DNA from: an uncultured Cellulophaga sp.
GTDB lineage: Bacteria; Bacteroidota; Bacteroidia; Flavobacteriales; Flavobacteriaceae
Reading direction: 5' to 3'
Assembly (NCBI GenBank): GCA_947492955.1
Contig: CANLOV010000016.1
Coordinates: 1 to 61,759 of the forward strand
Length of the DNA stretch: 61,759 nt
Made by a program: the position numbers and the translations under genes. Of the stretch, positions 19,341 to 34,807 are shown piece after piece; positions within the stretch are counted from its first letter, which is position 1; every line of letters begins with the position of its first letter. A model generated the notes under the pieces. That model had not been told where the DNA came from, made no database searches, and saw nothing but the letters and a program-made list of their open reading frames with translations.

Positions 19341-20729
19341 ATGCATAAAAATTTACTTTACATTATCTTATTTACTGCTTTTATAAGTTGTAATACGAAA
19401 AAGAAAAAGTCCCCTACCGCATTTTTTGCTGGTGAAATTGTAAATCCAACTAGTGATTATGTAGTTTTACATAAAGATGATAAAATTATCGATTCTTGCA
19501 AGCTAGATAAAAACAATAGATTTGCCTTTAACTTAAACTCTATTGTAGAAGGGTTATACCATTTTGACCATAATCCCGAATTACAATACGTATATCTTAA
19601 ACAAGGTGATAGTTTAATGATACGTTTAAACACCTCTGATTTTGACGAATCTTTAGTTTTCTCGGGTATAGGTGAAGAAACTAATAATTTTTTATTAGAA
19701 ATGTTTCTTGCTTATGAAGAAGAAAGTCCTATAATTAATTCTTACTATATATTAAATCCTAAAAAGTTCTCTTCAAAAATAGATTCATTAAGACAGATAA
19801 AACTTAATTTACTCCAAGAGTTAAAAACTGAAGTAAAACTATCTGATAAATCATTAGAAATTATAAATGCCAACATAGATTATAATTACTATGCTTTTTT
19901 AGAAAAGTACCCATTTAAACACAAACAACGTATTGGTAAAAAAGAAGTAGAAAAACTACCAGAAAATTTTTATGATTATCGTAAAAATTTAGATTTTAAT
20001 AAAAAAAGCCTTACTTATTTTAGACCTTATTATAACTTTATGAAATACCATTTTGGAAATTTATCCTATATGAGTTGCGCCAATATATGTGAAAATCACC
20101 CAGAATCTTTCACCAAACAATTACACTACAATAAACATAAATTAAAACTCATAGACAGCTTAGTTATTGAAAAAGGTTTACGAGATAATTTGTTTAGATT
20201 CGTAGCTATGGATTATTTATTAAACACGCATGATAACGATGTTAACAATAATTTATTTATAAAAGAATTCCATAATCTTTCCGAAAACAATAAGCATATA
20301 TCCGAAATTAATAGCTTATATAAAAGTATACAAAACTTACAGCCTAAACTTAAGATTCCAAATTTAACTGTTTATAATACAGAAGATAAAAAAGTTTATT
20401 TACAGGATATATGTAAAGATAAAAATGTTATCCTATATTTTTGGTCTGGTACTAGAAAAAAACATTTTAATAATATTACAAAACGTGTAAAATCTCTTGA
20501 AAGCAAAAAAAATAGTGAATATGTATTTTATGGTATTAACTTAAATACCGATTCTAAGAGATGGTTAAGTATGATTGATAACAAGGACTTAGATAGAAAA
20601 AACCAATACCGAGCCATTAACGATAAAGTATTATCAGATGCATTAATTGTTGATAAACTTAATAAAGTTATTGTAATTAAAGATGGTGTTATTATTGATG
20701 CTTTTTCTAATGTATACAAATCTTTTTAA
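19341..20729 (+). CDS. Lipoprotein with TlpA/thioredoxin-like C-terminal domain lacking the CxxC motif
   Basis: A 462-residue lipoprotein (ILFTAFISC, Cys17). Residues about 25-110 look like the beta-rich N-terminal domain found in Bacteroidota TlpA-like proteins (FFAGEIVNPTSDYVVLHKDD, LYHFDHNPELQYVYLKQGDSL). A helical middle follows. The last 120 residues are thioredoxin-like, LKIPNLTVYNTEDKKVYLQD then NVILYFWSGTRKKHFNNI. The WCxxC active site of redox-active TlpA is replaced by WSGTRKKH, so thiol exchange is unlikely. A non-redox envelope role is an inference. A strong terminator follows. Confidence 0.7.
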   Translation: MHKNLLYIILFTAFISCNTKKKKSPTAFFAGEIVNPTSDYVVLHKDDKIIDSCKLDKNNRFAFNLNSIVEGLYHFDHNPELQYVYLKQGDSLMIRLNTSDFDESLVFSGIGEETNNFLLEMFLAYEEESPIINSYYILNPKKFSSKIDSLRQIKLNLLQELKTEVKLSDKSLEIINANIDYNYYAFLEKYPFKHKQRIGKKEVEKLPENFYDYRKNLDFNKKSLTYFRPYYNFMKYHFGNLSYMSCANICENHPESFTKQLHYNKHKLKLIDSLVIEKGLRDNLFRFVAMDYLLNTHDNDVNNNLFIKEFHNLSENNKHISEINSLYKSIQNLQPKLKIPNLTVYNTEDKKVYLQDICKDKNVILYFWSGTRKKHFNNITKRVKSLESKKNSEYVFYGINLNTDSKRWLSMIDNKDLDRKNQYRAINDKVLSDALIVDKLNKVIVIKDGVIIDAFSNVYKSF

Positions 20730-20786
20730 ATTATCCTTACACAAAAATTTACACCAACACTTTATTATTTGACCACATACTTTAAA

Positions 20787-20810
20787 AAGCTGTCTAAATT
20801 AGACAGCTTT
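20787..20810 (+). terminator. Intrinsic terminator
   Basis: AAAGCTGTCT and AGACAGCTTT pair around a short AT loop (AAATT region) and are followed by a run of T. It closes the 19341-20729 transcript and separates it from the FIST cassette. Confidence 0.85.
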
Positions 20811-20950
20811 TTTTATTATTAAATTAGGCACAATTAAATAATTATAAATCAAACACCTAACTAAAAAAGAGTTATACGAAAAAATTAAAAATTACGTTAC
20901 CATATTAGTAGCTTTTTACTTACTTTTAAAAAAGATTTAAAATATTGTTA

Positions 20951-22084
20951 ATGAAAGTTTATCAAAAAAAAGTAACAATACCAGAAGATATAATGAATAT
21001 TAATATTTCATTTTATCCAGATGTGTTCTTCCTTTTTGTTTCACATTCATTTCCTGGCACAAATATTTTTTTAAAACAACTAAAGGAAAAATTTAAAAAT
21101 GCTATTCTTATAGGTTGTTCTACCTCTGGTGAAATCATTGGAGACGAAGTTTTAGATGCTACAATATCTTTAACAGCCATAAAGTTTGAAAAAACAAAAA
21201 TAAAAATATTCGATATAGATTTTAATTCATACGAAATAGAAGGTAATAGTTATAAAACAGGTTGTTCTATCAGTGAAAGTATATCCTCAAAAGATTTACA
21301 ACATATTTTTATTTTCAGTGATAGTGTTATAGGTAATGGAACTCAATTATTTAACGGTATAAATTCTAAATTAAACAAAAATGTTGGTATTACTGGTGGC
21401 ATTGCTGGTGGTAATAATGGTGCTAATACCCCTTTTATAATTCATGATGGAACAGTTAAAACTCAAAAAATAATTGCATTAGGATTATATGGTAACGATT
21501 TAAAAATTGGTATTGGATGTAGAGGTGGCTGGGATAGTTTTGGAATTGAAAGAAAAGTAACTAAATCTAAAGACAATATAATATATGAATTAGATGGTCA
21601 ACCGGCCTTAGATATATATAAATCTTTTTTAGGTGATAAAGCTAAAAACCTGCCAAATTCAACACTTACATTTCCTCTAAGTATAAGAAATAAGAATAAT
21701 AAAACTCCAGTTGTTAGGGCTGTTGTGGATATTAACGAACAAGAACGGAGTCTTATTCTTATTGGAAAAATCTTAGAAGAATCTTATGTAAGAGGCATGA
21801 AAGCTAACATAGACAGACTTATTAACGGTGCTGAAGAGGCTGCTGTAGTATGTAAAGAAAGTTCTAAAAATAAACAAGAATTAGCATTAATAGTTAGCTG
21901 CACTGGTAGAAGACTGGTAATGAAACAGTTAGTAGATGAAGAAGTAGAAGCGGTAAACGAAGTATTAGGTAATAATATATATATTACAGGGTTTTACTCG
22001 CATGGAGAAATTTCGCCCTTTAATAAACTATCTCCTTGCGTATTACACAATCAAACATTCTCTTTAACAACAATTTCCGAATGA
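20951..22084 (+). CDS. FIST-domain signal sensor protein, copy 1
   Basis: A 377-residue soluble protein with FIST_N (about residues 30-220; ILIGCSTSGEIIGDEVLD, ITGGIAGGNNG, GRGGWDSFG) and FIST_C (about 230-365; GQPALDIYKSFLGD, ending in GRRLVMKQLVDEEVEAVNE and TGFYSHGEISPF). FIST proteins sense small molecules and pass the signal to a partner kinase; NosP of Pseudomonas is a haem-binding NO sensor of this fold. I start at ATG 20951 rather than the TTG two codons earlier, because this matches the start and 377-residue length of copy 2. Its stop overlaps the kinase start by 4 bp (ATGA). His351 in FYSHGE is a candidate ligand residue. Confidence 0.88.
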   Translation: MKVYQKKVTIPEDIMNINISFYPDVFFLFVSHSFPGTNIFLKQLKEKFKNAILIGCSTSGEIIGDEVLDATISLTAIKFEKTKIKIFDIDFNSYEIEGNSYKTGCSISESISSKDLQHIFIFSDSVIGNGTQLFNGINSKLNKNVGITGGIAGGNNGANTPFIIHDGTVKTQKIIALGLYGNDLKIGIGCRGGWDSFGIERKVTKSKDNIIYELDGQPALDIYKSFLGDKAKNLPNSTLTFPLSIRNKNNKTPVVRAVVDINEQERSLILIGKILEESYVRGMKANIDRLINGAEEAAVVCKESSKNKQELALIVSCTGRRLVMKQLVDEEVEAVNEVLGNNIYITGFYSHGEISPFNKLSPCVLHNQTFSLTTISE

Positions 22085-23838
22085 ACAAGCTGCAAAGACT
22101 TTTAAAAAGACAGCTAAAAAAAGCTAATATAGATGAAGAGTTACAAAAAAAAATAACTCCTTTTCTAGAACAAGTTAATGAAGCTTACAAAGCTTTTGAT
22201 AGTGACTATAATCATTTAGAAAACATTCTAGAAATAAGCTCTCAGGAACTATTTAACGCCAACCAGCTTTTAAAAAATAATATCGAAATTATCTCAGGAA
22301 AATTATCTAACGTTGCTGAAAACATACGAGAGGTAATTTTTGAAATAGATTTAAATGGCAACTGGTCTTATCTTAATCTTGCATGGGAAAAACTTACGGG
22401 TTTAAAAGTAAAAGACAGTATAGGTAAGCCTTATTATTCTTTTTTAAAGGATGAAAGTCAAAAATCGCTAAATGGATTAATAGATATAGAAAATCCAACA
22501 AACAATAATTTTAATAAAAATGTAAGCTATACTACCAATAAAGGCACAAAAAAATGGTTTGATGTTTCTTTAAAAGTAGTAACGAATGACAATGGACAAC
22601 CTAAAGGTTATATTGGAACAATAATAGACATCAGTAATTTAAAAAGAATTGAGTTAGCATTAATAAAAGCAAAAGAAAAGGAGACAGAAGCTAATAGAGC
22701 TAAAGACGAATTTTTATCTATAATATCTCATGAAATTAGAACACCCATTAATGCTGTTTTAGGTATTAGTCACTTACTTTTAATAGAAAATCCCAAAGAA
22801 GAACAATTAGAAAACTTAAATGCACTAAAATATTCTTCAGAAAACTTATTAAGCCTTGTTAATAATATATTAGATTTTAATAAAATAGCGTCTGGATCAT
22901 TAGAGTTAGAAAAAATAGATTTTAATTTAGAGCAAATTCTTAATGGATTACAAACAATTTTTCATTATGAAGCTAAAGAAAAGAATATTTTCTTTATAGT
23001 TAAAAAGGACCCGCTACTTCCTAAAATGCTCATTGGAGACAGTACTCGTATTTCACAAGTACTTACTAATTTAGTAAATAATGCTATTAAATTTACAGAA
23101 AAAGGTAAAGTAATATTAAGAGTTGTCGTTGCTAATGAAACAGATACATCATATGATTTAAAATTTGCAATAGAAGATACTGGTATAGGAATACCTGATG
23201 ATAAAAAGAATAAAATATTTAAGTCTTTTGTTCAAGCAAATTCCGATACAACCAGAAAGTACGGTGGTTCAGGATTAGGACTAGCCATCTGCAAACAACT
23301 TATAGAAATAATGGGGGGTACTCTTACTTTACAAAGTGAAGTTGGAATAGGTTCAACATTTAGTTTTCTTCTAAACTTACAAAAAAGTAATATTACTAGT
23401 ATTTCTGAATACACTAACCCTCCTAACACACTAAACATTAAAGAACAAGATAATCTAAACGGAATTAAAATACTTGTTGCTGAAGATAATAAAGTAAATA
23501 TAATGGTAATTAAAAAATTCCTGAAATCTTGGAAAGTAAATTACCATTTTGCAGAAAATGGTTTAGTTGCCGTTGGAAAAGCTGCTATTAATGACTATGA
23601 CATTATTTTAATGGATTTAGAAATGCCCGTTATGAATGGTTTTGATGCAACACAATCTATTAGACAAACCAAAAAAAATAGTACCACTCCCATATACGCC
23701 TTAACGGCTTCAAATTCTATAGACACAAAAAACAAGATTAAAAAATTTGGCATGGACGGCCATATAAGTAAACCTTTTAACCCTCCTGAATTATATATTA
23801 TGCTATCTAAGATTGTACACAAAAAATATAGTTTTTAA
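22081..23838 (+). CDS. PAS-containing hybrid histidine kinase, copy 1
   Basis: A 585-residue cytoplasmic kinase without membrane segments. The start at 22081 overlaps the FIST stop and matches copy 2; an in-frame ATG at 22036 would lie inside the FIST gene. Order: helical N-terminus (1-70; MNKLQRLLKRQLKKAN, LENILEISSQELF), PAS (about 78-195), HisKA with His217 in SHEIRTPINAVLG, HATPase (NAIKFTEKGK, EDTGIGIP, KYGGSGLGLAICKQL) and a C-terminal receiver domain with Asp512 in ILMDLEMPVMNGF. Signal probably flows from FIST to kinase to receiver to an unlinked phosphotransfer protein. No DNA-binding output is attached. Confidence 0.93.
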   Translation: MNKLQRLLKRQLKKANIDEELQKKITPFLEQVNEAYKAFDSDYNHLENILEISSQELFNANQLLKNNIEIISGKLSNVAENIREVIFEIDLNGNWSYLNLAWEKLTGLKVKDSIGKPYYSFLKDESQKSLNGLIDIENPTNNNFNKNVSYTTNKGTKKWFDVSLKVVTNDNGQPKGYIGTIIDISNLKRIELALIKAKEKETEANRAKDEFLSIISHEIRTPINAVLGISHLLLIENPKEEQLENLNALKYSSENLLSLVNNILDFNKIASGSLELEKIDFNLEQILNGLQTIFHYEAKEKNIFFIVKKDPLLPKMLIGDSTRISQVLTNLVNNAIKFTEKGKVILRVVVANETDTSYDLKFAIEDTGIGIPDDKKNKIFKSFVQANSDTTRKYGGSGLGLAICKQLIEIMGGTLTLQSEVGIGSTFSFLLNLQKSNITSISEYTNPPNTLNIKEQDNLNGIKILVAEDNKVNIMVIKKFLKSWKVNYHFAENGLVAVGKAAINDYDIILMDLEMPVMNGFDATQSIRQTKKNSTTPIYALTASNSIDTKNKIKKFGMDGHISKPFNPPELYIMLSKIVHKKYSF

Positions 23839-23999
23839 AGTCTGTAAATACCCTAAAAATGTAACAATCATTTAGGTAGCTTACAATATATTCTTGATAT
23901 TTAAATACGAAATTTTAATTTTATGCGTTAAAAATATCAGTAATTCTCATTTGCAACAACCAATAAATATGAGTTTTACAAAAACACCAAGCTTAACCA

Positions 24000-25133
24000 A
24001 TGAAAACCTACCAATACAAAGTATCTAAATACAAAGATATTTCAGAAATTAATATCTCATTTATACCAGATATTTTCTTCCTTTTTATATCTCATACTTT
24101 TCCTGAAAAAGAAAAATTCATACAAGAATTAAGTATAAAATATAATAATTCAATTCTTATTGGATGTTCTACCTCTGGCGAAATTTTTGGTAATGAAGTT
24201 CTAGATTCTACTATATCATTAACAGCTGTAAAATTCGAAAAAACAAGAATTAAAACAACTGAAGTAGACTTTGAATCCTATGGTAAAAAAAGAGATAGCT
24301 TTAACAAAGGAAGTGAAATAAGTGAAAAATTAGCTGATACAGATTTACAGCATATTTTTATCCTTAGTGATAGTTTGTTTGGTAATGGCACCAAATTAAT
24401 AGATGGACTTAACTCAAGAATATCAAAATCTGTTACCATAACAGGTGGTTTAGCAGGAAACAATAATGGATTAAACGTTCCTTTTGTAATACACAATGGT
24501 ACTATTAAAACTAAAAAAATTATTGCCCTAGGTCTGTATGGTAAAGATTTAAAAGTATCTATAGGATCTAGAGGCGGCTGGGATAATTTTGGTATAGAAA
24601 AGAAAGTTACTAAATCTATTGATAATGTTCTTTATGAAGTAGACGGACAACCGGCTTTAGACATGTATAAATCTTTTTTAGGCGATAAAGTTAAAGATTT
24701 ACCTAGTTCCGCATTAGCGTTTCCTCTTAGCATGAGAAATAAAGTTAATACTATCCCGGTTGTAAGATCTGTTGTAGATATTAATGAAAAAGACCGAAGC
24801 CTAATTTTTGTTGGAAAAATACCCGAAGGGTCCTATTTAAGAGGAATGAAATCGAATATTGACCGACTAATTAATGGAGCCGAACAAGCTGCTATCGTTT
24901 GTAAAAATGATACAAATGAAGAACCTCAATTAGCATTTCTTATTAGTTCTTTTGGTAGAAGATTAGTAATGAAACAATTAGTAGAAGAAGAAGTAGAAGC
25001 AGTAAACGAAGTTTTAGGAAACAATATATGTACCACTGGCTTTTACTCTCATGGAGAAGTTTCTCCCTTTGATAAAAACTCTCCTTGCGTAGTACATAAC
25101 CAAACCATATCAATAACAACATTTTCAGAATGA
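24000..25133 (+). CDS. FIST-domain signal sensor protein, copy 2
   Basis: A 377-residue paralogue of the 20951-22084 protein with the same domain order and colinear motifs (ILIGCSTSGEIFGNEVLD, GQPALDMYKSFLGDKV, GRRLVMKQLVEEEVEAVNE, TGFYSHGEVSPF with His351). Differences include SSFGRR where copy 1 has SCTGRR, and a changed segment around residues 70-110. The two genes are colinear but differ at many codon positions, so the duplication is not recent. It is preceded by a 161-bp gap with no terminator I recognise, so both cassettes could share transcripts. It overlaps the next kinase gene by ATGA. Confidence 0.88.
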   Translation: MKTYQYKVSKYKDISEINISFIPDIFFLFISHTFPEKEKFIQELSIKYNNSILIGCSTSGEIFGNEVLDSTISLTAVKFEKTRIKTTEVDFESYGKKRDSFNKGSEISEKLADTDLQHIFILSDSLFGNGTKLIDGLNSRISKSVTITGGLAGNNNGLNVPFVIHNGTIKTKKIIALGLYGKDLKVSIGSRGGWDNFGIEKKVTKSIDNVLYEVDGQPALDMYKSFLGDKVKDLPSSALAFPLSMRNKVNTIPVVRSVVDINEKDRSLIFVGKIPEGSYLRGMKSNIDRLINGAEQAAIVCKNDTNEEPQLAFLISSFGRRLVMKQLVEEEVEAVNEVLGNNICTTGFYSHGEVSPFDKNSPCVVHNQTISITTFSE

Positions 25134-26908
25134 ATAAGCTACAAAGACTTTTAAAAAGACAGCTAAAGAAGGCTAATTTGGATGAAAACATACAACAACA
25201 AATTACTCCTTTCTTAGAACAAGTGAATGAAGCTTATAAAGCTTTTGATAGTGATTATAATCATTTAGAAAATATTCTGGAAATAAGTTCACAAGAATTG
25301 TTTTTGGCAAATCAGCAGTTAAAAGATAACATTGAGGTTATCAAGAGTAAATTATCTAATGTTGCTGAAAATATTCAAGAAGTAATTTTTGAGATAGATT
25401 TAGAAGGAAATTGGTCGTATTTAAACCCTGCATGGGAAAAACTTACTGGCTTAAAAGTAAAAGATAGTATAGGCAAGCCCTATTATCAATTCTTAGATAA
25501 TAAGATTTATAACCCATTAAAAAACAAACTAGATTTAAAAAATCCTAATTACAATATTATAAATGAAAACATAAGTTATGTAACACATGATGGGCATAAA
25601 AAATGGTTTGATTTCTCTTTAAAAAATATTACTTCTGAAGATGGAACTGCAAATGGATATATTGGAACTATTGTAGATATAAGTAACCTTAAAAAAACAG
25701 AGCTAGCCTTAATTAAAGCAAAAGAAAAAGAAACTGAAGCCAATAAAGCTAAAGATCAATTCTTATCTACAATATCTCATGAAATTAGAACTCCTATAAA
25801 TGCAGTATTAGGGATAAGCCATTTATTACTCATAGAAAATCCAAAAGAAGAACAGTTAGAGAATTTAAATGCACTAATGTATTCTTCTGAACATTTATTA
25901 AGTTTAGTAAATAATATTTTAGATTTTAATAAAATAGCTTCTGGTTCACTTGAGTTAGAAGAAACCGATTTTAATTTAGAACAAATACTTAATGGTTTAC
26001 AAAGTATTTTTTATAATGAAGCTAAAGAAAAAAATATTTCCTTCGTTATAAAAAAAGATCTCTCTTTACCAAAAATGGTCATGGGAGATAGTACTCGAGT
26101 TTCTCAAGTTTTAACCAACCTAATAAACAATGCCATTAAATTTACCGAAGAAGGTAGAGTTACTTTAGATGTCGATATTATAAATGAGACCTCAGACTCT
26201 TATCTTATAGAATTTATAATTATTGATACTGGCATTGGAATTCCTGAAGATAAGAAAGATAAAATTTTTAAATCCTTTGCACAAGCAAACTCAGATACAA
26301 CAAGAAAATATGGTGGCTCTGGATTAGGGCTTGCAATATGCAAGCAATTAATAGAAATAATGGGGAGTCAGCTTACTTTAGAAAGTCAAGAAAATAGAGG
26401 GTCTAAATTTAGCTTTTCTCTAAACTTTAAAAAGAGTACAAATATTAATCTTTCTCAAGAAGATAATATTTCCAATGTTTTAGATATTGAAAATCAGGAT
26501 AATTTAAAAGGCGTTAAAATATTAGTTGCAGAGGATAATAAAATTAATATAATGGTCATTAAAAAATTCCTAACCTCTTGGAAAGTAGCCTATGATTTTG
26601 CAGAAAACGGCTTATCTGCTCTGGGTAAAGCTACTATTAACGATTATGATATTGTTTTAATGGATTTAGAAATGCCTGTTATGAATGGTTTTGATGCAAC
26701 AAAAGCAATAAGAGAAACCGAAAAAAACAAACAAACTCCTATATATGCATTATCTGCATCTAACTCCATAGATACTAAAAGTAAAATTAAAAAATATGGT
26801 ATGGACGGACTTATTTGTAAACCCTTTAATCCACCCGAACTATATATTTTATTATCAAAAATTATACATTCGAAACATAAAATACAATTAAACGGTTGTT
26901 GTAAATAA
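25130..26908 (+). CDS. PAS-containing hybrid histidine kinase, copy 2
   Basis: A 592-residue paralogue of the 22081-23838 kinase: the same helical N-terminus, PAS, HisKA (His217), HATPase (KYGGSGLGLAICKQL) and receiver (Asp512 in VLMDLEMPVMNGF). The first 70 residues and the kinase core are highly conserved between copies. The second half of PAS (about residues 122-175), the linker before the receiver and the C-terminal tail (HSKHKIQLNGCCK, absent from copy 1) differ, suggesting different input with a shared output. It ends 4 bp before the convergent GH13 gene. Confidence 0.93.
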   Translation: MNKLQRLLKRQLKKANLDENIQQQITPFLEQVNEAYKAFDSDYNHLENILEISSQELFLANQQLKDNIEVIKSKLSNVAENIQEVIFEIDLEGNWSYLNPAWEKLTGLKVKDSIGKPYYQFLDNKIYNPLKNKLDLKNPNYNIINENISYVTHDGHKKWFDFSLKNITSEDGTANGYIGTIVDISNLKKTELALIKAKEKETEANKAKDQFLSTISHEIRTPINAVLGISHLLLIENPKEEQLENLNALMYSSEHLLSLVNNILDFNKIASGSLELEETDFNLEQILNGLQSIFYNEAKEKNISFVIKKDLSLPKMVMGDSTRVSQVLTNLINNAIKFTEEGRVTLDVDIINETSDSYLIEFIIIDTGIGIPEDKKDKIFKSFAQANSDTTRKYGGSGLGLAICKQLIEIMGSQLTLESQENRGSKFSFSLNFKKSTNINLSQEDNISNVLDIENQDNLKGVKILVAEDNKINIMVIKKFLTSWKVAYDFAENGLSALGKATINDYDIVLMDLEMPVMNGFDATKAIRETEKNKQTPIYALSASNSIDTKSKIKKYGMDGLICKPFNPPELYILLSKIIHSKHKIQLNGCCK

Positions 26909-26912
26909 ATGT

Positions 26913-28754
26913 TTATTCTACCTTAAAAACAAAAGATTGCAAAGGCTTTAATTTTACTTTAAAACTAGCTTTATTTTCTTTTACAAACAGAGTAGATTCA
27001 TCCTTTTTATACAATTGATCTCTTAAAACATAATTATTGTTTTCTAAACTCCATTTTTTTAGTAAAGAAGAAGGCAATTCCATATTAAGATTAAATATTT
27101 CCTCAGTACTAAAATTAGTTACAATAATTAATTTTTCAGTATTAGACCATCTAGCGAACGAAAAAATATGCTCACTATCTTTAGTAAAAATAGGTATCTC
27201 TTGATACGCTCCCATTAATGCTGAACTATTAATAGTAAAGTTTAGTAAACGCTTATAAAAATCTCTTAATTGTTTTTCTTTTTTTGTAGACTGTCCTCCA
27301 TCAAATTGTTTATTATTAACCCAACGTTGGTAAGTAGGCACCCCTATATAATCAAAAATAGATGTTCTAGATGGAGTTCCAAACCCTGCATTTTCGGCTC
27401 CTGGCTCTCCTAATTCCTGACCAAAATATATTAATGTTGGCGATGTACTAATTGTTGCCGATAATACCATTCCTGGTTTACTTACTTCTGCATCTCCTAA
27501 AAACTCTGAACTAGCTATACGTTGCTCATCATGATTTTCTAAAAAATGAACCATATGATGCTCTATATCTTTTAAGCTTTCTACAATAGGTATTATGCTC
27601 TTTACAGAACCTTTACCCTGCATTACACTTTTTAATGTATCATACATTTGTACTTTATCATACAAATAATCCATTTTTCCTAAATGAATATAGTCTCTAT
27701 ATAGACTTGGTGTATACACTTCTGCTAAAAGAAAAGCGTCTTTATTTTTCATTTTAATTGCAGAATTCATATAACTCCAAAATTCTACTGGGACCATTTC
27801 TGCCATATCATACCTAAAACCATCTACTCCTAAATCTAACCAGTATAGTGCTATATCCTTAAATTTATTCCATGAGTTTGGAACTTTTTTGCTTTTCCAA
27901 AATTTAAAATGAACTACGGCATCTTTGTTTTTATAATTAGATGGCAATATTTCAAAATCTTTTGTGCCGTCTGGCTTTATACCATAATTAACTTTAACTG
28001 TTTCGTACCAATCATAAAAATCTGGTTGCGATAATCTTGAGCCATTCCCTGTCCATTTTGCAGGTTTCTCATAAAACTCAAAATCAGCTAAGGGATGTTG
28101 TTCTCCGCCAAGAGGTAAATAGCCATTCTTAAACTGAGGTACCGAAAAAGATTCTTTAGGGTTATAATAAAAATTATTATTTACATCATAAACTACATTT
28201 ATGTTATCTGTTGCCCCAAAATCTTTTACCCCAATCGGATTTGTTTTTCCTTCATAATTTCTGGCTATATGGTTAGGGATGATATCTATAATTACCTTTA
28301 AACCTAAATTATGTGTTCTTTTAATTAAATCTTTAAACTCCTCTAATCTGTTTTCTGGTTCTAAAGCTAAGTCTGGATTTATATTATAGTAATCTTTAAC
28401 TGCGTATGGAGAACCTGCTCTACCTTTTACTACATCTGGATCATCATTAGAAATACCGTATGCCGTATAATCTTTAATTACATTATGATGCAATACTCCT
28501 GTATACCAAATATGGGTAACTCCTAATTCTTTAATTTCTTTTAAAGCTGTTTCTGTAAAATCTGCAAACTTACCTACTCCATTTTCTTCTATAGTTCCCC
28601 ATGGTTTATTTGTGGTATTTGCATTCCCAAATAACCTAGTAAAAACTTGATAGATAACTACTTTTCCTTTTTTATTTTCTGCTACACTTTCTTTTTTATC
28701 TGATGTACAGCTAATGAATAACAGTGATAAAATTGATATTGTAATTTTTTTCAT
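26913..28754 (-). CDS. GH13 alpha-amylase-type lipoprotein
   Basis: A 613-residue lipoprotein (SLLFISC, Cys16) with a GH13 barrel. Catalytic residues are visible: nucleophile Asp316 in GFRYDMAEM, acid/base Glu345 in AEVYTP, and Asp409 in ENHDEQR. Region I is IDIIPNHIAR and the C-terminal beta domain starts near residue 530. It would cleave alpha-1,4 bonds of maltodextrins, on the periplasmic side or the surface. Last gene of the minus-strand glucan operon; its start overlaps the previous stop by 4 bp (ATGA). Confidence 0.92.
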   Translation of the reverse strand: MKKITISILSLLFISCTSDKKESVAENKKGKVVIYQVFTRLFGNANTTNKPWGTIEENGVGKFADFTETALKEIKELGVTHIWYTGVLHHNVIKDYTAYGISNDDPDVVKGRAGSPYAVKDYYNINPDLALEPENRLEEFKDLIKRTHNLGLKVIIDIIPNHIARNYEGKTNPIGVKDFGATDNINVVYDVNNNFYYNPKESFSVPQFKNGYLPLGGEQHPLADFEFYEKPAKWTGNGSRLSQPDFYDWYETVKVNYGIKPDGTKDFEILPSNYKNKDAVVHFKFWKSKKVPNSWNKFKDIALYWLDLGVDGFRYDMAEMVPVEFWSYMNSAIKMKNKDAFLLAEVYTPSLYRDYIHLGKMDYLYDKVQMYDTLKSVMQGKGSVKSIIPIVESLKDIEHHMVHFLENHDEQRIASSEFLGDAEVSKPGMVLSATISTSPTLIYFGQELGEPGAENAGFGTPSRTSIFDYIGVPTYQRWVNNKQFDGGQSTKKEKQLRDFYKRLLNFTINSSALMGAYQEIPIFTKDSEHIFSFARWSNTEKLIIVTNFSTEEIFNLNMELPSSLLKKWSLENNNYVLRDQLYKKDESTLFVKENKASFKVKLKPLQSFVFKVE

Positions 28755-30445
28755 TTAGAATTATTATTTTCTAGTAATACTATGGTATAAGGAGTATCTA
28801 TTTTTACTTCTCCATTAATAACCTCAACTTTTTTACCTGAATAAGCTTCGGTTAATAGTTCTCCTTCGTTAAAAATATTAGACACATTTATTTCTTTTTC
28901 TCCTTTAGTTACATCTAAACCTACTATTACTTTATCGGTATAATTTTCTTTAGTATAAGATCTCTTAAAAATATAAGGGCTAGTAGATATTATTTTATGA
29001 TGCCCTGCTCCTATAGAAGGATGATTTGCTCTAAATTTGCCTAGCTTTTGCCAATGATTTAAGACTTCTTTTGTTGTATTATCATTTTTTAGAAATTCCC
29101 AATTCATAAAAGAACGCAATGTAGCATCGCCTTTTGCTCCTTCAATTTTTAATGGCCTGGAAGTTTCGTCTCCGTAATATATCTGGGCTGTACCTGGTGT
29201 TAAAAGTAATTTTGTAGCAGCCTCAAAAGGTTTTGTTCTTTCTTGATCAAAAGGTTCTCCATCATCATGTGAACTTATGTAATTTAAAACTCCGTAATCT
29301 TTTAATTCATTATTTAAAATAGTATCATACTTAGAAAATAATTCCTCGTAGCTAAGTTGAGTGGCATTCCATTTAAATTCAAAATTTATAAGACTGTTAA
29401 AAGCTTCATTAAAATAATTTACTTTCTTATCTCCATAATCATAATATTGTTTTGATGATATATTGTAATTATATACTTCACCGACGATATAAAATTTGTT
29501 ATCATCTAAAACCTTATCAGGATTATTGTTTTTGTAATAGGTAAAAGCATTATCGCAAACTTGTTTAAAATCTTGCCAAACACTCTCTTCCGTATGCTTT
29601 ACGGTATCTACCCTATAACCATCTATACCATATTCTTTAATATAATCTGCAAGCCATTTTATAATGTAATATTTTGGAGCTCGTGGATAGCCTGTTTCTG
29701 TAAAGAAATTATTGAGCTCTTTTTGTTCTTGTTCATACCTTCCCTCTTTTTTCCATTTTTCAATTAAAAAATTTGGTAAAGGCACATCTTTGTTAGACTC
29801 TGTTTTTATATCTGGTAAATTTTCTACTAAAGTACAGGTTACTGTAGTTTCATAATTAGCATAAGTACATTTAGGTGTAGTTCTTACCCAATCTTTAGGA
29901 AAAACTGGGTCATTCTCAGTAACGGGCCCAGTATGGTTTACAACGGCATCTAAAAGAACTCTAATTCCTTTTTCGTGTGCTACTTGCACTAATTTCTTTA
30001 AATCTGCTTTGGTTCCAAAATTGGGATCTAATGAAGTCCAATCTCTGGTCCAGTAACCGTGAAAACCATAAGAAACACCAGTTCCTTCATCTACCGACCC
30101 TTTTATCTGTTCTAAAAATGGAGACATCCATATGGCATTAACACCTAAATCGTTAAAATAGCCTTCTTCTATTTTTTTTATTATTCCTTTTAAATCGCCC
30201 CCCATAAAACCTCTTAGCTTTGCTGCTTCTTTGGTTCTATTAAAATTAATATCATTGGTATGATTGCCATTATAAAAACGGTCTGTAAGCATAAAATAAA
30301 CAGTTGCATTTTCCCATATAAATGGTACTGCTTGTTGTTCTTTAGTTATATCTTTTTTTGTAATAAATATAAACCCCAAAACAACAGCACATATTGCTAT
30401 TATTTTAAAACTTAACTTTAATTTTTTTGTATAAAAACGCTTCAT
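28751..30445 (-). CDS. GH13 alpha-amylase with N-terminal membrane anchor, MalS-like
   Basis: A 564-residue GH13 enzyme. Residues about 11-27 (SFKIIAICAVVLGFIFI) form a hydrophobic segment without a lipobox Cys, so a membrane anchor or uncleaved signal is likely. Catalytic residues: Asp280 in GYRVDTVKH, Glu323 in VGEVYN, Asp394 in SSHDDGEP; region I is LLDAVVNHTGP. The opening, ATVYFMLTDRFYNG and LRGFMGGDLKGI, resembles periplasmic MalS-type amylases, though the subfamily is an inference. Its first 41 bases overlap the 3' end of the GH31 gene, implying translational coupling. Confidence 0.9.
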   Translation of the reverse strand: MKRFYTKKLKLSFKIIAICAVVLGFIFITKKDITKEQQAVPFIWENATVYFMLTDRFYNGNHTNDINFNRTKEAAKLRGFMGGDLKGIIKKIEEGYFNDLGVNAIWMSPFLEQIKGSVDEGTGVSYGFHGYWTRDWTSLDPNFGTKADLKKLVQVAHEKGIRVLLDAVVNHTGPVTENDPVFPKDWVRTTPKCTYANYETTVTCTLVENLPDIKTESNKDVPLPNFLIEKWKKEGRYEQEQKELNNFFTETGYPRAPKYYIIKWLADYIKEYGIDGYRVDTVKHTEESVWQDFKQVCDNAFTYYKNNNPDKVLDDNKFYIVGEVYNYNISSKQYYDYGDKKVNYFNEAFNSLINFEFKWNATQLSYEELFSKYDTILNNELKDYGVLNYISSHDDGEPFDQERTKPFEAATKLLLTPGTAQIYYGDETSRPLKIEGAKGDATLRSFMNWEFLKNDNTTKEVLNHWQKLGKFRANHPSIGAGHHKIISTSPYIFKRSYTKENYTDKVIVGLDVTKGEKEINVSNIFNEGELLTEAYSGKKVEVINGEVKIDTPYTIVLLENNNSK

Positions 30446-32780
30446 CCTTACTATTAATTTTAAGTAATTTAGTTTCCTTATTCCACTCGTAATAACACCC
30501 CTTTATTTTTCTTGGTTTTTTAGTTATATTATGAATAATAAGATTTATATTTTTTGATTTTACTTTTGTATTTTCACCTACTTTGGTCTGTATTGTTATG
30601 TCTATTTCCTTAATACCAACCTCGCTAGTAAAAGTCAGTAGCTCATACATTCCTTTTTCGTAGGCATTTGATAACTCACCATTATCATAGTATAATTGCC
30701 TTGTACTTTGTTTTACAGATACATCATAATAATAATGCAATTCTAAATTATCTAGAGTATACTGCTTTGTAGATTGTATAATTGGTATTTTAGGAATAAA
30801 AGCCCCCGCTCTAACATAGGTGGGAATATATTCTTTGCTAACTTCTATGTTTTTAAAAGAGCCTCCTTCTTGTCTTTCGTTTGTATAATAATTAAACCAA
30901 ATATTATTTTTAGGAAAATAAACTTTTTTATGAGTTACTGCTGGTTTTACTATTGGAGATACTAGAAAGTCTTTCCCCCATAAATAAGTGCCTGATATTT
31001 GTTGAGTTTCTTTATTCTCTGGCTCTTCAAAAAGTAACGAACGCATTAAAGGCATCCCAGTTTGGTTGTTTTCAAAAGCCAAAGTATAATTATAGGGTAA
31101 TAATTGATATCTTAATTCTACTGCCTTTTTTGCTAAAGATTTTGTTTTGCGGTCTTTAAAAACTGGCTCTGGAGCTACCGACTCTTGCCCATGGGGTCTA
31201 AATATAGGCTGAAAAACGCCGTACTGTAACCAACGAATATATAATTCTGTATCGTCTAAATCACCTGCAAACCCTCCTAAATCAGAATGCATATACCCTA
31301 AACCCTGCATTCCCATTTGTAATGCTATTTCTGGTTGCGATTGTAATCCTCCCCAAGTTCTATTAACATCTCCAGACCATGGAATAATTCCGAAACGTTG
31401 TGAACCAGAATATCCTGCTCTCATTAAAATAAAAGGCCTCTTATTGGGGAAATCTTGTTTAAAACCTTCTTGTATTAATTGTGCCCAATGATGTCCGTAT
31501 ATATTATGCACCTCATCTGCAGTACCAATGGCATGTAGTAAGTCTTTGGGATGTACTTCTGGTTCTCCTAAATCTCCCCAAAAACCAGTAACTCCCATTT
31601 TGTATAACTCTTTATACCTATTCCAAAACCATTTTCTTCCTTTAGGATTATATATATCTATTAAGCCCGTATTTCCAAAATAAAAATCATAGGTATACGC
31701 ATTCCCTAAAGTATCTTTTGCTAAAATATCTTTAGTAACAGCATCTTTAAAGCGCTTAGAGGTACTTAAAACAAAGGGTTCGGTTATTACTACTGTTTCT
31801 ATTCCTTCTTTAGAGAAATCTGCAATCATTTTTTTAGGAGTAGGAAAATAATCTTTATAAAATTCTAAATCTCCCATACTGCCTTGTATTTCTTTTCCAA
31901 ACCAATATAAATCTAAAACTACCGCATCTAGTGGTATACTATCTTGTTTAAATTTTTGAATGGTATTACGGGTTTCTTCTTCCGAATGATAACCAAACCT
32001 ACTAGCAAAATTACCAAACGCCCAACGTGGTGGTATGGGTTGTCTTCCTGTTAAGGCGGTATAATTAGTTATTAAGTCTTGCCAAGAATCTCCAACTACA
32101 ACTTGGTATGTTTTACGCCCCGATATAGTTTCGTATGTTAATGTATTATCATTTTTACTATCTAAGTCTAAGAAACCAATTGGAGCATTATCAAAATGAA
32201 TAGCATAAATTTTTGAAGACAATACTAAAGGCATAGTATAGTTCATTAATTCCGAATGAGTTTCGTACCCATAATGTGCTTTATTATATAATTCTAAGCG
32301 ATGCCCACGCCTATTCATACCTAAGGCCCTAGCTCCTCCTCCATAAAGGATTTCTTCTTTTTCTATATTAAATTGAATTGCTTCTCTTTCTGCTATTTTA
32401 GTATACCCAAGTTTTTCCGAAATAACTGGCTTTCCTTTATAATTAAAGGAAACTTGAAAAGGTGCTTTTTGAATAAAAACAACTAAGTCTTTTTCTATAG
32501 TATACGTAATTGCTTTTTCTGTTTCTACAAGTGTAGTTTTTAAACTTATAGGAGCTAATACAACAGCATGAGATGTATTTATAAAAGCTTCTTGCTCCGG
32601 AATAAAACTAAGTTCTACTATTTTTTCTGTATATGGTTTAATTAAATAAGTACCATCTGTTACTTTAACTTTTACATGTGTGTTTTCCTCCTTTAAATCT
32701 ACAAATAAACGATTTGTATTTTGGGCATAGGATGCTTGTAATACCAATAAAAGAGCCGCGATTATTTTTAAAAACTTCAT
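30405..32780 (-). CDS. GH31 alpha-glucosidase-type enzyme
   Basis: A 791-residue protein with a signal peptide (LLLVLQASYAQ), therefore periplasmic or beyond. The GH31 layout is clear: an N-terminal beta domain, then the barrel with the nucleophile Asp403 in GFWGDLGEPE and acid/base Asp471 in PWSGDVNRTW. HSDLGGFAGD and RWLQYGVFQPIFRPHG are family motifs, and C-terminal beta domains complete it. In this operon it would release glucose from the non-reducing ends of maltodextrins. GH31 also includes xylosidases and transglycosylases, so the specificity comes from context only. Confidence 0.9.
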   Translation of the reverse strand: MKFLKIIAALLLVLQASYAQNTNRLFVDLKEENTHVKVKVTDGTYLIKPYTEKIVELSFIPEQEAFINTSHAVVLAPISLKTTLVETEKAITYTIEKDLVVFIQKAPFQVSFNYKGKPVISEKLGYTKIAEREAIQFNIEKEEILYGGGARALGMNRRGHRLELYNKAHYGYETHSELMNYTMPLVLSSKIYAIHFDNAPIGFLDLDSKNDNTLTYETISGRKTYQVVVGDSWQDLITNYTALTGRQPIPPRWAFGNFASRFGYHSEEETRNTIQKFKQDSIPLDAVVLDLYWFGKEIQGSMGDLEFYKDYFPTPKKMIADFSKEGIETVVITEPFVLSTSKRFKDAVTKDILAKDTLGNAYTYDFYFGNTGLIDIYNPKGRKWFWNRYKELYKMGVTGFWGDLGEPEVHPKDLLHAIGTADEVHNIYGHHWAQLIQEGFKQDFPNKRPFILMRAGYSGSQRFGIIPWSGDVNRTWGGLQSQPEIALQMGMQGLGYMHSDLGGFAGDLDDTELYIRWLQYGVFQPIFRPHGQESVAPEPVFKDRKTKSLAKKAVELRYQLLPYNYTLAFENNQTGMPLMRSLLFEEPENKETQQISGTYLWGKDFLVSPIVKPAVTHKKVYFPKNNIWFNYYTNERQEGGSFKNIEVSKEYIPTYVRAGAFIPKIPIIQSTKQYTLDNLELHYYYDVSVKQSTRQLYYDNGELSNAYEKGMYELLTFTSEVGIKEIDITIQTKVGENTKVKSKNINLIIHNITKKPRKIKGCYYEWNKETKLLKINSKDEAFLYKKIKVKF

Positions 32781-32789
32781 ATCTTACCC

Positions 32790-34724
32790 TTATAACTTAG
32801 TTGTTAATATAAATGCTCCTTTGCTTTTTAATTCTATATCCTTATTCCAAATTATCTCTTTATTAGTAATTATGTTTTTAAAAGTTCTCCCTTTTAACCC
32901 TAACTCTTTAAAACGTGTTAGGTCTAATGTTGTAGCTTTATTTTTATTTAAAATTACAACTACTATTTCCTCTCTTTCTATTCTAAATAAAGTATAAACT
33001 CCGTTTTCTGGTGCAAAATGTATTGTTTTACCAGTTGCAATTGCTTTACTTGTTTTTCTGTAATTAAGAACTTTTTTTAAATACAATTGCATTTCTAATT
33101 GTTCCTTAGATAAACCTTTTCCTGTAAATACATTTATTTTATCTCCTAACCAACCTCCTGGAAAATCTTTTCTTATTAACCCATGGTCTCCAGGCTTAGC
33201 GGTATTTTGCATTAAAATTTCTGTGCCATAATATATTTGAGGTATCCGTGGTAAACAAAGCATATAACCTAATGCCATTTTTGTGTTTGTTACATCTTCA
33301 TTTAACTGGGTAAAAATTCTATCCATATCATGATTATCAGAAAAAATCATAATATCTTTAGGCTTAACGTAACTAAAATCGTTTGCCAAGCCCTCATATA
33401 ATTTTATAAGCCCTGTATTCCATGCTTCAGGCTCATTAAGACCCGCTACTATGTATGATTGCATTGGAAAATCCATTGGAGATTTTAAGTTAGACTCATA
33501 ACCATCTGTATTATTTGCTCCTTTTTGCCAATACCCCACCAATAACGGATTGTAACTCCATTCTTCTCCAACAATACTAAATTTAGGATATTCATTCATT
33601 ATAGCTCCTGCCCAATTAGACATAAACTCTTTATTAGGGTACGGATAAGTATCTTGTCTTATACCTCCTAATTGTAGTGTTTCTATCCACCAGATATTAT
33701 TTTGAATTAAATATGTTGCTAAAAATGTATTTTCTTGATTTAAATCTGGCATTGTAGCAACAAACCAACCTTTACTTAAGCCTTCTTTATCTGCTTTAGA
33801 AGCGTATATATCTTGGTTTGTTGTTCTTTTATGATTAGATATTGTATACTCTTTATCAATGCTTTTCCCTTTTTGTATTTTCTCGTATACTTCCTGATGG
33901 TTTACCCAATCTTTAAAAGGTAAATCTTTCATCCACCAATGTTCACTACCACAATGGTTTGCAACCTGATCCATAATTAGTTTTACGCCTCTTTTCTTAG
34001 CTTCTAAAGAAAGCTTCTTATAATCTTCTAAAGTACCATATCGCGGGTCTACTTCATAAAAATCAGTCATAGCATACCCATGATAAGATTGTGTATACAT
34101 ATCATTTGTTAGCAAAGGACAAGACCAAATAGCTGTAAATCCCATATCTTGTATGTAATCTAAACTATTTATAATTCCTTTTATATCTCCACCATGTCTT
34201 GCATAATCGTTTTTTCGGTCAATAGTTTTCTCTTTTAAGCCTAGAACAATATCATTAGTGGTATCTGCATTCACAAAACGGTCTGGCGTTATTAAATATA
34301 TAGCATCGGAGCTATTAAAACCATCATATAATTCTGATTCTTTTAAACGTGATTTTAATTCATAGCTATGCTCGTACTTTTGCCCATCATCAAACTTAAA
34401 TTCAATATTAAACATACCTGGTATAGTGGTTCTGCTTATTTCTAAATCTATAAATAAATAATTAGGGCTTGTACCTTTATGTACTTTTATAATAGTAACT
34501 CCTTCGTAATTAATTGTTGGAACTGCATTACTTATATTTTGCTTCTTTACCAATAATTGTAGCTTAGAATCTTTAAAACCTACCCACCAATTAGGAGGTT
34601 CTACCCTATCTAAAAAATTACTAGGTATTATGGTAGAAATAGGTGCTGTTTCTTTTTGTGTTCCTTTAAACGCTAACACCTGCATGCTTAGGCATAAGAA
34701 AACTATTTGAATGTAATATTTCAT
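32790..34724 (-). CDS. GH13 neopullulanase/cyclomaltodextrinase (SusA-like)
   Basis: A 644-residue enzyme with a signal peptide (LCLSMQVLAF). An N-terminal beta-sandwich (about 30-130; VEPPNWWVGFKDSKLQLLV) typical of cyclomaltodextrinases precedes the barrel. Catalytic residues: Asp358 in GIRQDTYPY, Glu387 in VGEEWS, Asp466 in SDNHD; region I is KLIMDQVANHCG. It would hydrolyse cyclodextrins, pullulan or imported maltodextrins in the periplasm, like SusA of the Bacteroides starch system. It lies 9 bp before the GH31 gene and 83 bp after GH65, with a hairpin in that gap. Confidence 0.93.
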   Translation of the reverse strand: MKYYIQIVFLCLSMQVLAFKGTQKETAPISTIIPSNFLDRVEPPNWWVGFKDSKLQLLVKKQNISNAVPTINYEGVTIIKVHKGTSPNYLFIDLEISRTTIPGMFNIEFKFDDGQKYEHSYELKSRLKESELYDGFNSSDAIYLITPDRFVNADTTNDIVLGLKEKTIDRKNDYARHGGDIKGIINSLDYIQDMGFTAIWSCPLLTNDMYTQSYHGYAMTDFYEVDPRYGTLEDYKKLSLEAKKRGVKLIMDQVANHCGSEHWWMKDLPFKDWVNHQEVYEKIQKGKSIDKEYTISNHKRTTNQDIYASKADKEGLSKGWFVATMPDLNQENTFLATYLIQNNIWWIETLQLGGIRQDTYPYPNKEFMSNWAGAIMNEYPKFSIVGEEWSYNPLLVGYWQKGANNTDGYESNLKSPMDFPMQSYIVAGLNEPEAWNTGLIKLYEGLANDFSYVKPKDIMIFSDNHDMDRIFTQLNEDVTNTKMALGYMLCLPRIPQIYYGTEILMQNTAKPGDHGLIRKDFPGGWLGDKINVFTGKGLSKEQLEMQLYLKKVLNYRKTSKAIATGKTIHFAPENGVYTLFRIEREEIVVVILNKNKATTLDLTRFKELGLKGRTFKNIITNKEIIWNKDIELKSKGAFILTTKL

Positions 34725-34746
34725 TTACTCTATATTTAATATAAAC

Positions 34747-34787
34747 TAAACAATAACAGCTAACATAAAGTAAGCTGCTATTGTTTA
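34747..34787 (-). terminator. Intra-operon hairpin between GH65 and the neopullulanase gene
   Basis: Plus-strand TAAACAATAACAGCT (34747-34761) pairs with AGCTGCTATTGTTTA (34773-34787), a 15-bp stem with one G-U or A-C type mismatch and an 11-base loop. In the minus direction it is followed by TTTATATTAAATATAG rather than a clean T-run. It may be a partial terminator or an RNA-processing site that sets unequal expression. Confidence 0.5.
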
Positions 34788-34807
34788 TGTTCTTATAAAA
34801 AAGTATA

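Follow-up and report, generated by a model that had tools for sequence, protein, structure and literature searches.

Among proteobacteria, FIST sensor proteins have been reported (PMC12570481, PMC11237717) to bind a partner histidine kinase and alter its autophosphorylation. The FIST protein VpsV, which the second paper terms NosP, is paired with the hybrid kinase VpsS; the relay then continues through a free-standing HPt protein (PMC4398556), named as LuxU (PMC11237717). Here we analyse a locus of an uncultured Cellulophaga sp. (Bacteroidota, Flavobacteriaceae) in which a FIST–hybrid-kinase unit occurs twice in succession. The window, which is the whole stretch of DNA analysed, is the entire contig C16 (CANLOV010000016.1; 61,759 bases) of a genome of 3.87 Mb in 57 contigs, and four + strand genes within it make up the two head-to-tail units (20951–26908). 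We put at about even the chance that they represent an old, lineage-specific tandem duplication of a Bacteroidota FIST and PAS hybrid-kinase unit, which now provides two diverged sensors and interchangeable kinases to one relay.

Both copies are intact, full length and under purifying selection, and neither has been inactivated, which was one way in which the initial annotation thought its proposal might fail. The two FIST proteins align without gaps and are identical at 254 of 377 residues (67%), with 0.209 non-synonymous (dN) and 1.19 synonymous (dS) substitutions per site and dN/dS of ~0.18. The two kinases, also ungapped, are identical at 447 of 583 residues (77%; dN 0.154, dS 1.33, dN/dS ~0.12). 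The wide codon divergence noted earlier is therefore real and close to saturation, and such near-saturated synonymous divergence means that the tandem is neither an assembly artefact nor a product of chance. Additionally, high dS combined with low dN/dS argues that both copies have long been retained by selection. This old divergence under selection counts against dosage or drift, in which the second copy supplies more of the same protein and no new function, as does the fact that the FIST proteins differ more than in most pairs with similarly close kinases. The two copies do agree in domain order, catalytic residues and gene overlaps, as dosage or drift would have it, yet we consider this explanation improbable.

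Protein identities between this species and its congeners are 73-74% for GH65 (three congeners), 65-68% for amyA (two) and 78% for HNOB (one), at dS of 1.28-2.48. The duplication thus appears roughly as old as the divergence of this species from its congeners, or perhaps a little more recent: the copies' dS lies at the low end of the congener range, and as all of these values are near saturation only the order of age is meant. A recent or strain-level duplication as the whole story is ruled out by the dS of the copies and by their congener-like protein identity. Strain-specific noise had been named at the outset as a possible refutation, and the tandem is indeed found in only one of 18 genus genomes, yet its copies have diverged about as much as the species has from three congeners, so that it is not recent noise. 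Copy 1 has the longer branches in both trees (FIST 0.39 versus 0.31; kinase 0.21 versus 0.14).

For comparison we used 64 other FIST–hybrid-kinase pairs from Bacteroidota (hereafter relatives), and we call 'type A' any FIST gene followed by a same-strand hybrid kinase where both fall among those of the relatives in the trees, as both window units do. FIST1 and FIST2 are sisters in a careful FIST tree (support 100/98), as are HK1 and HK2 in a quick kinase tree (support 100, from the Shimodaira–Hasegawa-like approximate likelihood ratio test, SH-aLRT, only). By path, the nearest rows in both trees are units of other genera (G323, G137, Arenibacter). The FIST tree sets the L109 group beside the window copies with modest support (92/79), and the kinase tree sets L093, L094 and L182 there (support 97). 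Thus the separate trees that the initial annotation had asked for both recover the sister pair and the main clades, and differ in some details. The 17 congeners lack a type-A unit, which suggests either that this lineage acquired the unit or that the congeners lost it. Guanine plus cytosine (G+C) content is 28.5-28.7% in the units and 31.5% (standard deviation 2.7) across window genes, about one standard deviation apart, and offers no strong sign of transfer. The units are not duplicates of the FIST gene usual in the genus, which encodes a protein 36-45% identical to those of the window and sits in an H-NOX operon.

Conservation between the copies is uneven across domains. Identity is 64% in FIST_N, 73% in FIST_C, 87% in the kinase N-terminus, 66% in PAS, 94% in HisKA, 74% in HATPase and 82% in the receiver (REC). 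As a control we took 98 pairs of relatives with kinase identities of 70-84%, scoring each domain relative to the kinase identity of its pair. The N-terminal excess of the window pair lies above that of all 98 control pairs, and its FIST proteins are less conserved than in 97% of them (93.5% in a wider set of 294 pairs). Among 24 hand-picked close pairs the N-terminal excess (+0.119) was again the largest, the next being +0.047. Simple binomial values are ~1e-4 both for the N-terminal excess and for the FIST deficit, uncorrected for the eight domains and for shared ancestry. Gene conversion as the cause of the N-terminal conservation was rejected, as codon tests gave no sign of it: among codons for the same residue, 39 of 60 are identical in the N-terminus against 218 of 375 elsewhere (p=0.33), and 25 of 34 in the first 40 codons against 232 of 401 (p=0.10).

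HK353, the kinase without PAS or REC that adjoins the FIST gene of the congeners, also starts with this N-terminal domain (35% identity; E 2e-11 when 11 sequences were compared), and a genome-wide search with the domain found HK1 and HK2 strongly, with third place at only E 0.39. From these patterns we infer that residues 1-70 form the docking site for the FIST protein and that partners are exchangeable between the copies. Each FIST protein would bind a small ligand or redox cue and dock on this domain; docking would set autophosphorylation at His217 and subsequent transfer to Asp512, from which the phosphate would pass to a separate HPt protein and on to a response regulator. Since this docking region differs little between the copies, FIST1 and FIST2 can each probably pair with HK1 as well as with HK2, and mixed kinase dimers may form. 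A shared output is compatible with the conservation of HisKA and the receiver, but is not proved by it.

Candidates for the receiving HPt lie elsewhere in the genome. In 15 of the 17 congeners (L048-L062) the FIST gene belongs to an operon of receiver, HNOB, PAS kinase, FIST, kinase, HPt and LytTR regulator, an order whose Pfam names were tested on L057 only, with HNOB in 16 of 17 congeners and HPt in 15 of 15 fetched loci. The H-NOX operon of the present genome, on contig C1 (L148:6977-10623), encodes a receiver, HNOB, a PAS kinase of 534 aa, an HPt of 106 aa and a LytTR regulator, but no FIST–kinase pair. With HNOB on C1 and the FIST units on C16, neither FIST gene here is H-NOX-linked, that is, within 6 kb of HNOB. 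A deletion that fused two kinases in this operon was considered and rejected: both ends of the 534-aa kinase match the H-NOX-side kinase, of which it seems to be a version that has fewer PAS domains. The 106-aa HPt candidate, at L148:7694-8014, was undetected by Pfam search; HPt domains head the matches to its predicted fold (3myf, TM 0.77, E 0.008), none under E 0.001, and its His56 is invariant across 19 sequences. We regard the HPt–LytTR pair of this operon and a stand-alone HPt on contig C8 as candidate recipients.

Several observations weigh against the reading of two sensors that share one relay. The HATPase domains are less conserved than in 99% of the 98 control pairs, which a pure model of the same kinase with a new sensor does not predict, and HisKA and REC lie within the usual range (25% and 85% of control pairs, respectively, fall below the window pair), so that by themselves they are no argument for a shared output. 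The FIST deficit (-0.079) is exceeded by three of the 24 close pairs (L114-L116, L110-L113 and L213-L235). The N-terminal excess comes from one pair, picked after viewing eight domains, and the controls share ancestry; FIST and kinase identities correlate across pairs (r=0.67, a value that still includes shared species history). The genome's own H-NOX-side kinase weakly matches the N-terminal domain (E 0.003 and 8e-4, in the same 11-sequence comparison; its L057 counterpart is weaker still), so the domain may not be strictly a mark of FIST partnership. No genetic link ties HK1 or HK2 to any HPt. Among genomes with H-NOX, type-A units occur in 10 of 72 without a linked FIST and in 8 of 74 with one (p=0.62), which gives no signal of a general replacement of the H-NOX-linked FIST by a type-A unit.

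Some of these observations would suit two insulated pathways, in which each pair specialised after duplication, with its own ligand and output and without crosstalk. FIST and PAS identities of 67% and 66%, the unusually diverged HATPase, HisKA and REC domains no more alike than in other pairs, and six private changes per copy among 107 strongly conserved FIST columns are all in keeping with such a split. The unusually conserved kinase N-terminus, and only one private change per copy among 128 strongly conserved kinase columns, speak against insulation, which we hold to be doubtful, though deserving of weight.

The initial annotation read the units in the light of NosP–NahK and placed weight on a histidine at position 351. 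His351, like His217 and Asp512, does occupy its reported position in both copies, but the weight on it was misplaced: 63 of 64 relatives have Tyr at position 351 and the remaining one has Phe, which rules out His351 as a conserved haem ligand. Across 146 distinct FIST sequences, 133 have Tyr there, 7 have Asn, 4 have His (including both window proteins) and 1 has Phe, with the position unread in 1. Three other conserved FIST positions are also changed in both copies (Gly125 to Ser, Ser297 to Ala, Met370 to Phe/Ile), as are six conserved kinase positions, including N-terminal His5 to Gln (His in 64 of 64 relatives). Changes common to both imply that the ancestor was already altered and that His351 predates the duplication. 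The DNA pattern for GFYxHGE occurs in 5 of 345 class genomes, including this one, and two of the four other matches fall within FIST genes. His366 is invariant in 64 of 64 relatives, so that a conserved ligand residue, if there is one, would rather be His366 than His351. Two distant FIST proteins, L258 (G475) and L262 (G580), also have His351, and L258 has Tyr at the His366 position, as if the two had been swapped.

The NosP and NahK assignments themselves did not survive comparison with family models. Against the NosP equivalog model (NF041558) the two FIST proteins score 51.1 and 59.9 bits, where the cut-off is 450, and the kinases score 177-183 bits (cut-off 400) and 122-126 bits (cut-off 1500) with the NahK/ErcS models NF041832 and NF041831. 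These scores, the Tyr (once Phe) of the relatives at position 351 and the lack of any NO-related gene among the immediate neighbours make it unlikely, although still a serious contender, that both FISTs are NosP-like haem proteins with His351 in the site, controlling NahK-like kinases in response to NO. In its favour, binding of haem and NO is reported for FIST proteins from several species (PMC12570481, PMC11237717), the congeners' FIST sits in an H-NOX operon, and genomes that encode H-NOX carry type-A units more often (18 of 146) than those without it (8 of 251; p=6e-4, ancestry uncorrected). A mixed two-input hub that feeds the HPt–LytTR pair of the H-NOX operon, with the shared Tyr351-to-His change as a ligand switch before duplication, seems to us very unlikely. 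NO or haem as the ligand is possible, without support from family membership, and a redox cue or a metabolite are likewise possible ligand classes.

Metabolites enter the argument through the fold and the neighbours of the relatives. The AlphaFold2 model of FIST1 finds FBXO22 as its top fold match (E 4e-11, 11% identity), followed by small-molecule enzymes, namely cyclic amide hydrolases and chorismatases, and the same enzymes are reported as relatives of FBXO22 in PMC11185555; sequence searches against solved structures gave no useful match. Upstream of the unit and on the same strand, leuA and leuB occur in 12 of 64 relatives, which together with the fold would fit FIST proteins that report amino-acid metabolism, for example the leucine pathway, as the older setting of the subfamily. 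Across these 12 loci (L093, L095, L109, L111, L112, L115, L178, L180, L181, L182, L234 and L256), 10 of which have all four leu genes, the distance to the unit is 0.1-4.2 kb: within 0.3 kb of FIST in four (L093, L109, L111, L112) and 1.7-4.2 kb in eight. The genome's own leu operon is on another contig (C7), the gene next to the window unit encodes an amylase, and different genes again flank the unit in two further clades (RadC/DUF7033 and DUF2851/TrkA), so that neighbours may reflect plain synteny; moreover, the FBXO22 FIST domain has no obvious pocket according to PMC11185555. Thus we rank metabolite sensing of this kind as fairly unlikely, a little below sensing of NO through haem.

The FIST–hybrid-kinase unit is ordinary in Bacteroidota, and the tandem is rare, as a search of flavobacterial genomes proposed in the initial annotation bears out. 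None of 80 named loci, the best 80 of 582 FIST relatives, holds tandem FIST units: each has exactly one FIST, 68 of them with at least 3.5 kb on both sides, and the remaining 12 could hide a neighbour. At least seven of these loci duplicate other sampled genomes, and the collection may leave out records very near the window. Several genomes of the family sample have FIST genes identical to those of named Flavobacteriaceae, for example Winogradskyella vincentii (L104 and L223), which places the family as Flavobacteriaceae. Within the genus sample of 18 genomes, two FIST genes occur in this genome, a single one in each of 15 others and none in 2, and neither a tandem nor a type-A unit occurs in any of the 17 congeners. 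In the family sample FIST is present in 116 of 397 genomes, and type-A units in at least 26: this one, 24 with FIST and a hybrid kinase at the locus, and G123, where a contig end truncates the FIST gene; the count leaves out the FIST genes of G336, G019 and G067, which are not H-NOX-linked. One other of the 26, G152 (L098), also carries the unit twice, on one strand with 8.4 kb between the copies (L098:3202-6319 and L098:14750-17667), which the trees assign to a separate duplication of its own. We met no published report of such a tandem arrangement in the literature searched. Seven loci of other Flavobacteriaceae (L123-L126, L129-L131) carry two to four tandem FIST genes without intervening kinases, ~23-30% identical to the window FIST, and one member in each has Asn at the usual Tyr351 position.

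Coordinates of the locus are collected in the table. They agree with the initial description of two consecutive two-gene units with 377-residue FIST proteins and ATGA overlaps of FIST stop and kinase start (22081-22084 and 25130-25133); coinciding lengths hold for the FIST proteins, and the kinases differ, at 585 and 592 aa. FIST1 is 377 aa when read from ATG, and an alternative TTG six bases upstream would give 379 aa. The ATGA is not special to the duplication, because such overlaps are common in the relatives (4 bases in 19 of 64, 7 bases in 28 of 64). Pfam finds FIST_N (134-140 bits; cut-off 23.2) and FIST_C (104-109 bits; cut-off 28.5) in both sensors, which places them in the FIST family, and PAS, HisKA, HATPase_c and Response_reg in both kinases. 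Each kinase is thus a hybrid histidine kinase, a single chain that carries HisKA, HATPase_c and a receiver together with the phosphoacceptor residues His217 and Asp512, which 64 of 64 relatives share; the receivers are retained, as had been claimed.

The hairpin upstream of FIST1 is the sole terminator-like site in 20700-27000, where shuffled sequences average 2.0, so that it is weak alone; the same scan, with its chance level of two, found none between the two units. Because a terminator-like hairpin precedes FIST1 and none separates the units, one transcript shared by the four genes is plausible. A search with a Bacteroidota promoter consensus gave one weak match before each unit, not above shuffles. 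An alpha-amylase gene (Pfam) and putative glycosidase-like genes (named by eye) adjoin the cassettes on the - strand (26913-37114), and the amylase gene is found in 10 of 17 congeners, there without the FIST–kinase cassettes.

Table 1. Features of the tandem FIST–hybrid-kinase locus in window coordinates.
Feature	Position	Strand	Description
Terminator-like hairpin	20784..20812	+	Upstream of FIST1, separating the unit from the preceding gene
FIST1 sensor protein, 377 aa	20951..22084	+	Pfam FIST_N 25-217, FIST_C 219-356; AlphaFold2 pLDDT 90.5
HK1 N-terminal domain, residues 1-70	22081..22290	+	Proposed FIST-docking module; 87% identity between copies
HK1 hybrid histidine kinase, 585 aa	22081..23838	+	PAS 75-184, HisKA 207-272 (His217), HATPase_c 319-434, REC 464-574 (Asp512)
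HK1–FIST2 gap, 161 bp	23839..23999	+	No terminator-like site; weak Bacteroidota-type promoter-like match at 23894, not above chance
FIST2 sensor protein, 377 aa	24000..25133	+	Pfam FIST_N and FIST_C
HK2 hybrid histidine kinase, 592 aa	25130..26908	+	Domain order of HK1; 77% identical to HK1

FIST ligands and kinase contacts are known mainly from a few NO-sensing examples. A long-kept tandem is a natural experiment that separates the diverged FIST from the retained kinase N-terminus, and so points to a candidate docking domain. If sharing of one relay by two diverged sensors is the true explanation, two different signals may drive one common response in this bacterium.

Compared with known systems, the window shares with NosP–NahK and NosP–NosK (Pseudomonas, Legionella, Shewanella, Burkholderia) a FIST gene that adjoins the kinase it regulates there, but it scores far below the cut-offs of the family models, has no adjoining response-regulator gene, comprises two tandem units and belongs to Bacteroidota, which cautions against calling every FIST–kinase pair NosP–NahK. 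The congeners' H-NOX–FIST operon (for example L057) likewise places downstream of FIST a kinase whose N-terminal domain is related, although its FIST is the distant one described above and its kinase lacks PAS and REC. Single units of Arenibacter, Allomuricauda, Winogradskyella, Flavivirga and others (L093-L116, L178-L256) have the same gene order, a short overlap or small gap and the same kinase type, at ~41-63% FIST and ~39-66% kinase identity, but there is one per place (except L098) and their residue 351 is Tyr, once Phe. The tandem FIST arrays (L123-L126) resemble the window in having tandem FIST copies, and differ in their low identity and in having no kinase between. VpsV–VpsS of Vibrio cholerae, with its cytoplasmic hybrid kinase, offers the same combination of a FIST partner and a hybrid kinase, and the window kinases have a receiver and no Pfam HPt; unlike the window it is a single unit with an established HPt, and the likeness is one of arrangement, not drawn from sequence comparison. 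By analogy, the window unit probably works most like the proteobacterial FIST–kinase pairs, with a shape like that of VpsV–VpsS, and what is new here is the tandem, the derived His351 and a kinase N-terminus kept while the sensors diverged.

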